Shown: positions 2,481 to 7,038 of the stretch, piece after piece | Numbering within the stretch: the first letter of the stretch is position 1 | Layout of the letters: every line of letters begins with the position of its first letter | Assembly (NCBI RefSeq): GCF_028368975.1 | Contig: NZ_JAQNDM010000002.1 | Coordinates: forward strand, 4,148,425 to 4,212,424 | Reading direction: 5' to 3' | DNA: 64,000 nt | DNA from: Stigmatella ashevillena | GTDB lineage: Bacteria > Myxococcota > Myxococcia > Myxococcales > Myxococcaceae | The notes under the pieces: generated by a model | What the model saw: only the letters and a program-made list of their open reading frames with translations | The model's database searches: none | What the model was told of the DNA's origin: nothing | Translations under genes and position numbers: made by a program

Positions 2481-4469
2481 TCAGTCCATCGCCGGGAACG
2501 GGCCGATGTATCCCGCGTACGACTGCCTCACGCCCAGATCCGCCCCCACTTTGTCCGTGTCGGACTCGCCGTAGGGATGTTGGATCTGCGTCTTGATGTA
2601 CGCGTGCCCACCGATGTTCGGGAAGAAGTAGACGCCCGTCGTCTCCGAGCCGTAGGGCGTGGAGAAGATGCGGGTCAGCGAGCGCGTCACCACGTTGTAG
2701 GCCCACACCATGTCGTTCTGATGGCCATCGGTGCTGTCCTCGCCGATGAGCAGGGTGTCGTACCCTTCGATGAACGTCAGGTTGTCGGGATTGGCGATGC
2801 CATTCACGCTGCAAACATTTCCAATGGCCGGCTGGGCCACCCCACTGCTGTCCGGGAGCGTGAAGGACGGAGCGAAGTAAGGGCTGTTGCTCGGGTAGAG
2901 GCTGGCGCCGGGCGCCTTCAGCCACACGCCCTCGATGAGGGACGAGGCGGACTCCGCGACGTACTCGCTGCCGACCTCCGCGTTGCGCGAGACGACGAGC
3001 TCATACACGCCTCCGCAGTAATTCTCGGCGAGCTGCACGTGGTTGGGCCCACCGACATCCCGCGATGAGTTGTCGATCATCCCATTGTTCATCTCGCTGA
3101 AGGCGACGTAGAGCCGGTTCGTGGCCGGGTTGAAGGTGATGCCCTCCGTCTTGCGGAACTCGGTGGTCGCGCCCACGTCGGCCGCATAGCGGCGGCTCTC
3201 CAGGCGAGAGGCCGCCAGCTCCTGGCCGGTCTTCAACTTCAGGCACTCCCGGCCCGTCTCGGTGTTGATGGCGCGGAACCCGGAGGCCGCCCCCGGGCAG
3301 GTGCCATCCGTGGCCTGGGGCTCGGTCTCGAAGATCTGGGAGAACTGGATGCCGGTGTCGATGAGCGCCTTGACCTGTGCATCCGTCGCGCTGGGCCCCA
3401 ACGGAATCCAGTAGAGGTCCGCCCGGCCCCACGGCTCCTTCGCCGGACTGGTCTGGAACCAGCGCGCCGCGTAGAGCTGGCCCTCGGAGAGATCTCCCGC
3501 GGTCTTCGCCACGAACATGTAGAAGGCATCGTTCGTGCCGTCATCGCTCAGGTAGACCGTGCGACGGTCCGGCATCACATACGCCAGTTCGAGCGCGCGG
3601 CGGCCCGACGCGTAGTGCTTCTTGACGGTGGTCGAGCCCGCCCCGTCGACCGCGACCTCGACCACATACCCATAGCGGTAGGGGTGGTACGCCGCCTTCG
3701 CCTCCGCCAGGGAGGCGGTGGCCGCATCGAGCCCCCAGTAACGGAGCATGGAGCGCTCCGAAGCGCTGAGGCCGCTCACGGCCGTGGCGTTCTCGTACAG
3801 GCGCGCATCCGCGGGGTACTCCTCGCTGCCCAGGTGCGTGTTCCACGGAGACACGGAGCCAGCGCACGGGGTCCAGAGCCCATCCACACCGGAGAAGTCG
3901 ATGGGCCGGGTGCTGGTGGCCGTGAGCTTGCCGTCCGTCTCCTGGCGCAGCTCTGAGAGATACATCGCCGCCGGCGTGGTCTCGAAGTGGGTGACCTCGA
4001 AGAGCTTGCCTCCCACCTGGAGAAGCGAAGAGAAGTCATTGGACGGAGAGATGAGGTCCGAGCCGTCCTGGGCCTTCACCGGCGCCCCGTCCTTCTTCGT
4101 CAGACGCCCGAAGACTTGCGAGGTCAAGGACTGGCCGCTGCGCAGCACCGCCTCGAACCGGATCGCCACGTCCTTCCCGTTCACGTTTGCCTTCGTGCTG
4201 GCATAGGCGGCACGCTTCTCGGCGTCCGTGACCGCCGCGGGGATGGGCGTGAAGTGGAGCGTCTTCCCCTGACCCGCGGGCCCTTCAGGCCCTTGGGGCC
4301 CCTGCGGGCCCGTCGTCCCGGGCGTGCCATCGGCCCCGGGCGTTCCCGGGGCTCCCGCGATGCCCTCTTTCCCCTCATCGCCACTGCACGCGGAAAGCGC
4401 GAGCACGGTCATGGAGGCCACCATCAGGCGCCCTGTCCGGAACGCCCACTTCGAACGGCCATGTCGCAT
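2481..4469 (-). CDS. PhoX-like (DUF839) secreted lipoprotein with a collagen-like linker
   Basis: I place the start at the ATG at 4469 because it is preceded by a strong ribosome-binding site (GAGGTGAGGA); an in-frame ATG 36 bp upstream lacks one. The N-terminus is a lipoprotein signal peptide with lipobox LSAC (Cys about residue 28). Next comes a short Gly-X-Y run (GPQGPQGPEGPAG) that resembles collagen and may act as a spacer from the membrane. The rest (about 600 residues) resembles the PhoX/DUF839 beta-propeller group, with motifs such as RKTEGITFNPATNRLYVAFSE and NPDNLTF. PhoX enzymes are calcium/iron-dependent alkaline phosphatases, but many DUF839 proteins are uncharacterised, so phosphatase activity is inference. 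It is the first gene of a two-gene unit with the diheme cytochrome. Confidence 0.75.
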   Translation of the reverse strand: MRHGRSKWAFRTGRLMVASMTVLALSACSGDEGKEGIAGAPGTPGADGTPGTTGPQGPQGPEGPAGQGKTLHFTPIPAAVTDAEKRAAYASTKANVNGKDVAIRFEAVLRSGQSLTSQVFGRLTKKDGAPVKAQDGSDLISPSNDFSSLLQVGGKLFEVTHFETTPAAMYLSELRQETDGKLTATSTRPIDFSGVDGLWTPCAGSVSPWNTHLGSEEYPADARLYENATAVSGLSASERSMLRYWGLDAATASLAEAKAAYHPYRYGYVVEVAVDGAGSTTVKKHYASGRRALELAYVMPDRRTVYLSDDGTNDAFYMFVAKTAGDLSEGQLYAARWFQTSPAKEPWGRADLYWIPLGPSATDAQVKALIDTGIQFSQIFETEPQATDGTCPGAASGFRAINTETGRECLKLKTGQELAASRLESRRYAADVGATTEFRKTEGITFNPATNRLYVAFSEMNNGMIDNSSRDVGGPNHVQLAENYCGGVYELVVSRNAEVGSEYVAESASSLIEGVWLKAPGASLYPSNSPYFAPSFTLPDSSGVAQPAIGNVCSVNGIANPDNLTFIEGYDTLLIGEDSTDGHQNDMVWAYNVVTRSLTRIFSTPYGSETTGVYFFPNIGGHAYIKTQIQHPYGESDTDKVGADLGVRQSYAGYIGPFPAMD

Positions 4470-4702
4470 TCTGTCCTCACCTCGATGAGTCATCAGGCGA
4501 GGCACGGTACAGATCGCTCATGGCACGTGAGCAACATGTTCGTGCCGCGCACGACACGGAGGGAGAACGAGCAGCAATCCCCCGGCACGGCCTCGCCCAT
4601 CACATCCCGGATCTGCCCTCTCTTTCTGAATGTGGACCTGAAGCGGGCGCGGGCGTGGTGCCCGTGCAATCCCCCGTCGAACAGGCCGCACGGAGGCCTG
4701 TA
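4470..4702. promoter_or_regulatory. Divergent intergenic region upstream of the PhoX-like unit and the graspetide operon
   Basis: These 233 bp separate two divergent operons and must hold the promoters for both. The only sites read with confidence are the ribosome-binding sites at each end: GAGGTGAGGA for the leftward gene and GGAGG for the graspetide precursor. I see no convincing -35/-10 pair or operator. Confidence 0.4.
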
Positions 4703-4900
4703 ATGAAAACGAAGGCAAAGAAGCAGGCGCAGCAAGGTGGCAAGCAACCCTTCTTCGCACGGCTGCTCGAGGCGCAGGAACTCGACCAGGCCGCGGGCGG
4801 TAAGCAGGTGATCACCACGAAGAAGTTTCCCTCGGATTCGGACGAGGTGATGGTCACCCTGAAGTACCCCTCGGACAGCGACGAAGGCTACGCTCGCTGA
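4703..4900 (+). CDS. Graspetide (microviridin-type) precursor peptide with two core repeats
   Basis: This 65-residue peptide starts at the ATG after a good Shine-Dalgarno (GGAGG, 4692-4696). Its leader contains PFFARLLE (residues 16-23), close to the conserved PFFARFLE helix by which microviridin precursors bind their ATP-grasp ligases. Two core copies follow: TKKFPSDSDE (residues 39-48) and TLKYPSDSDE (residues 52-61). Both fit the microviridin core T-x-K-(Y/F)-P-S-D, with Thr and Ser as ester donors, Lys as amide donor and Asp/Glu side chains as acceptors. Compared with classical microviridins, the Trp after PSD is Ser and the first of the two Glu is Asp. Two ligase genes follow immediately, as expected for a precursor. 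No protease or exporter gene is adjacent. Confidence 0.93.
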   Translation: MKTKAKKQAQQGGKQPFFARLLEAQELDQAAGGKQVITTKKFPSDSDEVMVTLKYPSDSDEGYAR

Positions 4901-4926
4901 GTGCCTCGGACAGCATTTCCACGCCC

Positions 4927-5976
4927 ATGCCCCCCGCTCGCGGCACCGTCCTGCTTCTCACCCACAGCCGGGACCACTACACGGTCGACCGGGTAGCGCA
5001 GGCGCTGTCGCGGCGGGGAGCACGTCCGGTGCGCATCGACACGGACGGCTTTCCCTCGGTCCTGACGCTGACCTCGCGGCTGGGACCGAGTGGGGCGGAC
5101 GTGGCCTTGCGCACGGCCACGGGAAAGCGGCGAGGCCAAGACATCCGCGCGGTCTGGCTGCGGCGACTCGCGCCCCCCCGGCTGGATGAAGCATTGGAGC
5201 CTGTCTGGCGCGACGGGTGCCTCCGTGAATCCCTCGCGGCGTTCGAGGGATTTCTCGACGGCCTGGAGGCAGCAGGCTGCAGCTTCATCAACCCGCTCGC
5301 CGCCGAGCAGATCGCGCACAACAAGCTGCATCAGCTCCGAGTGGCCCAGACGCTGGGGCTGGAGATCCCCCGCACCCTGGTCACCAATGAGGCGGGCCAG
5401 GTACGGGCCTTCTTCGAAGAGGTGCAAGGCCGCATGGTGGCCAAGATGCTGACCCCCCTCAGCCAGTCCATGGAGGGGGGAAATCCCTTCGTGTACACGA
5501 GCGCGATCAGCCCCCCGCAGCTCGAACAGCTCGAGGGGCTCCGCCACAGCCCCATGGTGTTCCAGGAACGGATCGACAAGGCCCGTGAGCTGCGGGTGGT
5601 GGTGGTGGGCCCTCACTGCTTCGTGGGCGCCATCGACGCGTCCCGCTCGGTGGCAGGCCAGGTGGACTGGAGGCGGGCCGGTCCCGGAGAGTGCCGCTGG
5701 GAAGCCGGCGACGTTCCCCCCGCGGTGGCCGAACTCCTGGTGCGTCTGGTAGCGGCACTGGGGCTGGTGTACGGCGCCGTGGATCTCATCGTCACCCCAG
5801 AGGGGCGGCACGTCTTTCTCGAAGTGAACCCCGGGGGTGAGTGGGGAATGCTCGAGCGAGAGCTCGGCCTGCCCATCGCCGAGGCCCTCGCCGAATCCCT
5901 CGTCACCGGGGAGCGCGTCTCCCCTTCCTCACGCTGGAGCCCTCATGACCGTCCTCATCGTGACCCACTCCCATGA
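4927..5976 (+). CDS. mdnB: ATP-grasp peptide ligase, MdnB/MvdC type (omega-amide forming)
   Basis: A 349-residue ATP-grasp enzyme that closely follows the microviridin ligase MdnB/MvdC from end to end: VLLLTHSRDHYTVDRVAQAL at the N-terminus, AVWLRR near residue 75, HNKLHQLRVA, IPRTLVTN, CPMVFQE-like SPMVFQERIDKARELR, and the ATP/Mg-binding tail FGAIDLIVTP-like YGAVDLIVTPEGRHVFLEVNPGGEWGMLE. In microviridin pathways this ligase makes the lactam between the core Lys and an acidic side chain after the ester rings have formed. The start ATG lies 26 bp after the precursor stop without a strong ribosome-binding site, so translation may be partly coupled. Its C-terminus overlaps the next ligase gene. 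The MdnB assignment rests on remembered family sequence and should be confirmed by a tree. Confidence 0.9.
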   Translation: MPPARGTVLLLTHSRDHYTVDRVAQALSRRGARPVRIDTDGFPSVLTLTSRLGPSGADVALRTATGKRRGQDIRAVWLRRLAPPRLDEALEPVWRDGCLRESLAAFEGFLDGLEAAGCSFINPLAAEQIAHNKLHQLRVAQTLGLEIPRTLVTNEAGQVRAFFEEVQGRMVAKMLTPLSQSMEGGNPFVYTSAISPPQLEQLEGLRHSPMVFQERIDKARELRVVVVGPHCFVGAIDASRSVAGQVDWRRAGPGECRWEAGDVPPAVAELLVRLVAALGLVYGAVDLIVTPEGRHVFLEVNPGGEWGMLERELGLPIAEALAESLVTGERVSPSSRWSPHDRPHRDPLP

Positions 5977-6946
5977 CAACATGGCGCCCAGGGACGTCGC
6001 GCACGCCGTGGCGGCTCGCGGACATCGGGCCTACCGGTTCGACACCGACCTGTTCCCCACCCACCTGCGACTCACGCTCGACGAGCGGGGCGAGGGCCGC
6101 CTCTCGGGGCCGGAAGGCGTGCTCGACCTGGCAGAGGTGACCTCGGTCTGGTACCGCCGCAATGGCACCGGGACGCGCATCCCCCGGGAGATGGCCCCCC
6201 AGCTCCGCCAACCCTCCGTGGAGGAGAGCCGGCGCGTGGTGTCCGGGATGCTCGCGGCGCGCAGGGTGTTTCAGCTGGATTCACTCGAGGAGGTGCGACG
6301 CGCGGAGCACAAGCCGTTGCAGCTCGAGCTGGCGGGCGCCTTGGGGCTCGAGGTGCCCCGCACCCTGACCACCAATGATCCCGACGCGGTGCGGACATTC
6401 GCCGCGAGCTGTCCGGGCGGCGTGGTGACGAAGATGATGACCTCCTTCGCCGTCTACGGCGAACAGGGCGAGGAGCAGGTGGTGTTCACCACGCCCTTGC
6501 GCCCGGCGGACCTGGAGAACCTGGAGGGGCTGGACCTGTGCCCGATGACCTTCCAGGAGCGCATCCCCAAGGCGATGGAGCTGCGGGTCACGGTGGTGGG
6601 AGAGCGGGTGATGGCGGCCTCCATCGACTCGCAGGTCCTGCCGAGGGCCCGCGAGGACTGGCGCCGCGAAGGGGTGGCCCTCGCAGGTGCCTGGCAGCCC
6701 TACCTGCTGTCCGAGCCCATCCGGACGCGGGTGCTCCGGCTGATGGACCTGCTCAGGCTCAACTATGGCGCGCTCGACTTCATCGTCACGCCCGAGGGCA
6801 GACATGTCTTCCTCGAGGTGAACCCATCGGGTGAATTCCTGTGGCTGACCCAATCTCCCGGCATGCCCATCACCGATGCCCTGGCGGACGTGCTGACCGG
6901 GCGCTCGGCCCACAGGCCCGTTCTCACCTCCCTGGAGACCCGATAA
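5945..6946 (+). CDS. mdnC: ATP-grasp peptide ligase, MdnC/MvdD type (omega-ester forming)
   Basis: I start this 333-residue protein at the ATG at 5945 (MTVLIVTHSHDN), which aligns with the N-terminus of MdnC; a longer open frame upstream lies inside the preceding gene. The match to MdnC is strong throughout: FDTDLFPT, the VWYRR motif near residue 67, HKPLQLELA, VVTKMM, CPMTFQERIPKAMELR, and LNYGALDFIVTPEGRHVFLEVNPSGEF with the metal-binding Glu/Asn. MdnC-type ligases recognise the leader PFFAR helix and form the two ester bonds of the core, probably acting first. The gene overlaps the upstream ligase by 32 bp, which suggests translational coupling. Confidence 0.92.
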   Translation: MTVLIVTHSHDNMAPRDVAHAVAARGHRAYRFDTDLFPTHLRLTLDERGEGRLSGPEGVLDLAEVTSVWYRRNGTGTRIPREMAPQLRQPSVEESRRVVSGMLAARRVFQLDSLEEVRRAEHKPLQLELAGALGLEVPRTLTTNDPDAVRTFAASCPGGVVTKMMTSFAVYGEQGEEQVVFTTPLRPADLENLEGLDLCPMTFQERIPKAMELRVTVVGERVMAASIDSQVLPRAREDWRREGVALAGAWQPYLLSEPIRTRVLRLMDLLRLNYGALDFIVTPEGRHVFLEVNPSGEFLWLTQSPGMPITDALADVLTGRSAHRPVLTSLETR

Positions 6947-7038
6947 CGCGGACGCGTCCCCTCAGGGATGGGTTGCCTCACGCCCCTCTGAAATGGCATA
7001 GAACCTGACCGTTTGAACACAAAGAGGTCGGGGAGACG

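Follow-up and report, generated by a model that had tools for sequence, protein, structure and literature searches.

Microviridins are small caged peptides that block protein-cutting enzymes. Their published core consensus is TX1KYPSDX2[D/E][E/D] (PMC5934393), the PFFAR-type motif of the leader is ligase-activating (PMC7823629, PMC8939145), and residue 5, flanked by the ester Thr and the lactam Lys, is the one that occupies the S1 pocket and determines specificity, an assignment as P1 that comes from crystal structures and mutants (PMC7823629). The microviridin J/B system of Microcystis (MdnA-E) combines a TxKYPSD core, two lactones and one lactam with the enzymes MdnB and MdnC, and the class II system AMdnA/AMdnB/AMdnC of Anabaena PCC 7120 has a PFFAR-type leader, several cores and the same two types of enzyme (PMC5934393). 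The operon described here is built likewise, its rings being predicted.

This operon is located at positions 4703-6946 (+) of the window, the whole 64,000-nucleotide stretch of Stigmatella ashevillena DNA that was analysed, and consists of the gene for a 65-aa microviridin-type precursor followed by two ATP-grasp ligase genes, with the MvdC/MdnB-type (lactam) enzyme encoded first and the MvdD/MdnC-type (lactone) enzyme second. A ribosome-binding site GGAGG (4692..4696, +), whose GGAG is kept in the genomes G078, G080 and G082, lies upstream of the precursor ORF (4703-4900, +; MdnA/MvdE type), which encodes MKTKAKKQAQQGGKQPFFARLLEAQELDQAAGG-KQVITTKKFPSDSDEVMVTLKYPSDSDEGYAR. The leader helix PFFARLL (4748..4768), the motif with the ligase-activating role, is followed by AAGG and by TKKFPSDSDE-VMV-TLKYPSDSDE, with core 1 at 4817..4846, the linker VMV at 4847..4855 and core 2 at 4856..4885, all on the + strand. 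The precursor matches Pfam Inhibitor_I10 (PF12559; E 6.9e-9, 36.2 bits, cut-off 21) and the NCBIfam model NF033738 of microviridin/marinostatin RiPPs (E 9.4e-13, 48.8 bits, cut-off 26). The match is far above chance, because NF033738 gave no match in 14 control genomes and only this one in the whole 10.95 Mb genome, where no second microviridin precursor was found. Both cores fit the consensus, with T, K and S as donors and D, D and E as acceptors. The leader helix PFFAR(F/L)L and the two copies of TxKxPSDx(D/E)(D/E) correspond to graspetide group 1, and the presence of more than one core together with a double-glycine motif corresponds to class II microviridins. The leader ends in LLEAQELDQAAGG (4763..4801, +; L-12, E-8, L-7, A-4, G-2, G-1), so that its AAGG end, with L-12, L-7 and A-4, follows the double-glycine rule of hydrophobic residues at -4, -7 and -12 (PMC10885120), and cleavage by a C39 peptidase is predicted after nt 4801. 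Comparison with the precursor of the sister genome G078 gave a dN of 0.044 and a dS of 0.167 (dN/dS about 0.27).

The first ligase (4927-5976, +) matched TIGR04185 with 395.5 bits (E 1.6e-118), just below the equivalog cut-off of 425, and the second (5945..6946, +) matched TIGR04184 with 427.2 bits (E 3.8e-128), just below the cut-off of 475. Among solved structures, the best match of the first ligase was AMdnB (7m4s, E 7.7e-91), followed by MdnB (5ig8, E 3e-86), and that of the second was MdnC (5ig9, E 3.8e-97). With solved homologs at E values between 1e-86 and 1e-97, the folds of both ligases can be regarded as settled, and the ATP-grasp motifs VTKM...GALDF and VAKM...GAVDL, which surround the conserved Lys and Asp, have been retained intact. 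When 74 ATP-grasp proteins were arranged in a tree, the two ligases came out in separate groups, MvdC-type and MvdD-type (SH-aLRT 91 and 82), both of which include cyanobacterial microviridin enzymes (Microcystis, Planktothrix); the nearest neighbours were from other Myxococcaceae/Archangiaceae. Profiles, structures and tree thus uphold what a sequence-only reading of this DNA had proposed, a microviridin-type graspetide operon with a PFFAR-type leader, two tandem cores each with all crosslink donors and acceptors, and one MdnB-like and one MdnC-like ligase; the profile search and tree that it had suggested as a check placed both enzymes inside the microviridin MvdC and MvdD clades. Its ORF positions stood for the precursor and the first ligase; for the second it had given a GTG start at 5837, a mechanical extension of the ORF. 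The start is most likely the ATG at 5945, because homology to MdnC begins there, and from this codon the second ligase overlaps the first by 32 bp.

Within the order, the precursor model matched 20 of 145 genomes, and within the phylum 22 of 195; 15 of the 145 carry two-core (occasionally three-core) precursors of the Hyalangium-Archangium type. Multi-core microviridins are on record (PMC5934393) and have a place in the classification of the family (PMC13039773); for Archangium and Cystobacter, conserved microviridin clusters have been catalogued with antiSMASH (PMC12766979). Considering these reports and the 15 genomes that share the architecture, the operon is a further member of a known family, and microviridins with two or more cores form a class that is already established. 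Hyalangium, Archangium and Myxococcaceae are the nearest named relatives, in keeping with the myxobacterium-like origin that had been supposed from the letters.

In the sister genome G078 all flanks of the operon are syntenic. The close relative G077 keeps the near flanks but lacks window positions 4560-6969, with positions 4559 and 6970 lying only 24 bp apart (L114), which delimits a module gained or lost as a whole (4560..6969, +) that comprises the upstream region and the three genes. In G079 the site is occupied by 1.4 kb of unrelated sequence, in which no similarity to the precursor or the ligases was found. In the other genomes the recurring part is confined to the precursor and the pair of ligases, the flanks being unrelated. 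The three-gene operon is the whole cluster, to which no acetyltransferase, protease or transporter belongs. No exporter or protease was found beside the operon, as had been noticed from the sequence, and the flanks differ between genomes. Scans for promoters, terminators and RNA families gave nothing above chance. Divergently from the operon, positions 2481-4505 of the window encode a protein that has a PhoX domain and, close to its N-terminus, a collagen-like Gly-Xaa-Yaa stretch. The locus can be described with good confidence as a minimal class II microviridin operon.

The two cores differ in P1, with Lys in the first and Leu in the second, as expected of an inhibitor with two heads. A comparison of 24 distinct two-core precursors of the family revealed a basic P1 in core 1 only in 14 precursors, in core 2 only in 2, in neither core in 8 and in both cores in none. 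Exactly one basic P1 was therefore present in 16/24 family precursors versus 0/7 two-core precursors from outside the family (those at L043 and L062 from Planctomycetota, at L049 from Acidobacteriota and at L057 from another myxobacterial lineage), none of which has a basic P1, and 15/24 pair one basic with one hydrophobic P1. A sign test on this pattern gave p 0.004, a value that ignores relatedness and is only descriptive. This distribution suggests that two distinct targets have been selected for, as in a double-headed inhibitor, although the 8/24 relatives devoid of a basic P1 count against such a design. As judged from these residues, the two heads probably aim at different proteases: core 1, with Lys at P1, would block trypsin-like enzymes, and core 2, with Leu, those of the elastase or subtilisin type. 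A two-core precursor with the reversed P1 order (Leu, then Arg) was observed at L087 (G075) beside a broken MvdD-type ligase, and at the related locus L098 (G074) the ligase pair is still present. None of the publications listed in a literature search named double-headed microviridins, and an earlier description is possible.

In the proposed maturation route, the PFFARLL helix would dock on both ligases and activate them, the MvdD-type enzyme would form two side-chain lactones per core (T1-D7 and S6-D9) and the MvdC-type enzyme one Lys-Glu lactam per core (K3-E10), with six waters lost in total over both cores; this ring chemistry is highly probable. A C39 peptidase-ABC exporter would then cut after AAGG and secrete one 32-residue peptide with two tandem cages. 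The calculated monoisotopic mass is 7188.67 Da for the unmodified precursor, 7080.60 Da after six dehydrations and 3525.72 Da for the linked 32-residue peptide. Such a linked product is the likeliest outcome, and on the sequence comparison a fairly probable one, because the double-glycine C39 signal ends the leader and none stands between the cores. A GG precedes core 1 in 21/24 two-core relatives (3/24 precursors lack the GG signal), and the linker is free of GG in 21/24. The distributive MdnC can handle three cores on one precursor (PMC5934393). The alternative that some other protease parts the cores, giving two ordinary single-cage microviridins with different targets, is rather unlikely. 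It can draw on class I microviridins, for which trimming by a bifunctional endo/aminopeptidase, NosP for example, has been described (PMC13039773), and on short linkers such as VMV, which resemble the short tails of single-cage microviridins; the long linkers of Archangium, up to 8-12 residues, could also be open to cleavage. However, the linkers of the family range from 2 to 12 residues, mostly without GG, and share no motif for cleavage, whereas the leader-core junction does carry a GG. It is also conceivable, though very improbable, that only one core is functional and the second a decaying duplicate. Multi-core substrates can be incompletely modified in vitro, where AMdnC gave mainly a 1-2-2 ring pattern (PMC5934393), but all donors and acceptors are kept in both cores, here and in nearly all relatives, and the precursor dN/dS argues against decay.

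The linked product would require an exporter, and a C39 transporter, which class II clusters have often but not always (PMC13039773), is not adjacent to this operon. Four C39 matches were found in the genome (G000), three of them full peptidase-ABC transporters, and one of these belongs to a C39-ABC/HlyD/HlyD cassette at about 9.629-9.634 Mb of G000:C2 (transporter at G000:C2:9629395-9631632, with two HlyD adaptors), unlinked and 5.5 Mb from the operon. An ortholog of this exporter, at about 76% identity at least, was found in each of the 15 two-core genomes and in 0/130 others, the next best match being a paralog with at most 67% identity. G077 and G079, which are closer to G000 according to the PolIV control gene (92-93% vs 82-87% for G080-G082), lack the cassette at its syntenic site and likewise the microviridin genes. 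At L057 a C39 exporter, 52% identical over 724 aa, is encoded directly upstream of a two-core precursor. The one other PCAT of this genome that was compared (L069:3280-5541) was discarded, its orthologs in the two-core relatives not exceeding 58%. We lean, on this pattern of co-occurrence, towards the unlinked cassette as the putative microviridin exporter. Dedication to microviridin would be too strong a claim, since its neighbours at L093:6709-7400 include a GG peptide of the mersacidin/lichenicidin type (TIGR03898) and a GG-leader peptide of 54 aa; no lanthionine synthetase was detected by Pfam scan among the four neighbouring proteins. The competing view, that the cassette serves only these lantibiotic-like peptides, that its match to the microviridin genomes reflects shared ancestry and that microviridin is matured otherwise, has considerable but less than even weight. 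TIGR03898 peptides adjoin the cassette in G000, G078 and Archangium, and G077 and G079 lack them too. Because the 15 genomes are related by descent, few independent events stand behind the co-occurrence, either a single origin with a single joint loss or a single joint gain in G000/G078. Against that view, TIGR03898 peptides occur in 37/145 genomes (14/15 with the exporter and 23/130 others) and are absent from G073, which keeps both exporter and microviridin, while the exporter-microviridin match is exact (15/15 vs 0/130). As the cassette adjoins TIGR03898 peptides and yet microviridin tracks the exporter more exactly, the most economical reading is that the exporter is probably shared with other GG-leader peptides. 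The complete picture, a single two-cage, double-headed microviridin with a trypsin head and an elastase/subtilisin head, conserved in one myxobacterial family and released by a shared, unlinked C39 exporter, is put forward only tentatively.

In several relatives, further two-core precursors (L076, L078, L080, L082 and L084-L086) lie more than about 7 kb from any ligase, and the genomes with such orphan precursors have a close ligase pair elsewhere. In G047 no precursor lies within 2 kb of the ligase pair (L097), and the single one found in this genome is more than 3 Mb distant. The ligases of those genomes must act on distant precursors, if such precursors are used at all, and the scattered genes are a hint of ligases acting in trans. 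Other types of precursor were also observed. An orphan two-core subgroup (L008, L016, L031) has no double-glycine signal, and a CHAP/NlpC-P60 domain protein adjoins this subgroup (seen at L084 and L086). Class II microviridins have been described with up to five cores (PMC13039773); giant microviridin-type precursors with 7-16 cores were found at L014, L022, L024, L027 (16 cores), L091 and L026, mostly with Gly-rich linkers and several with a long N-terminal region before the PFF-type motif.

Judged by its genes, the operon belongs to a known inhibitor family and is an ordinary representative of it. The leads it offers are a natural two-headed caged inhibitor and a candidate exporter that would also supply the missing leader protease; in the relatives with precursors scattered away from the ligase pair, the ligases would serve inhibitor genes across the whole genome in trans. 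The antiSMASH clusters of Archangium and Cystobacter (PMC12766979), from the same order and of the same cluster class, are very likely the same family of loci; the main text of that paper gives them by type only, without analysis of precursor, core or exporter. The first ligase is homologous to AMdnB of Anabaena PCC 7120 at E 8e-91, but the Anabaena precursor has three cores and that of the window two, with P1 split into Lys and Leu, and, unlike in the Anabaena system, no exporter adjoins the operon. The microviridin J/B cluster differs in its single core, its lack of a double glycine and its acetyltransferase and ABC transporter genes, and at core position 9 it has E where both window cores have D. 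The plant Bowman-Birk inhibitors likewise join two inhibitory heads with different specificities in a single peptide, although they are disulfide proteins with no sequence or chemical relation to the peptide of the window.
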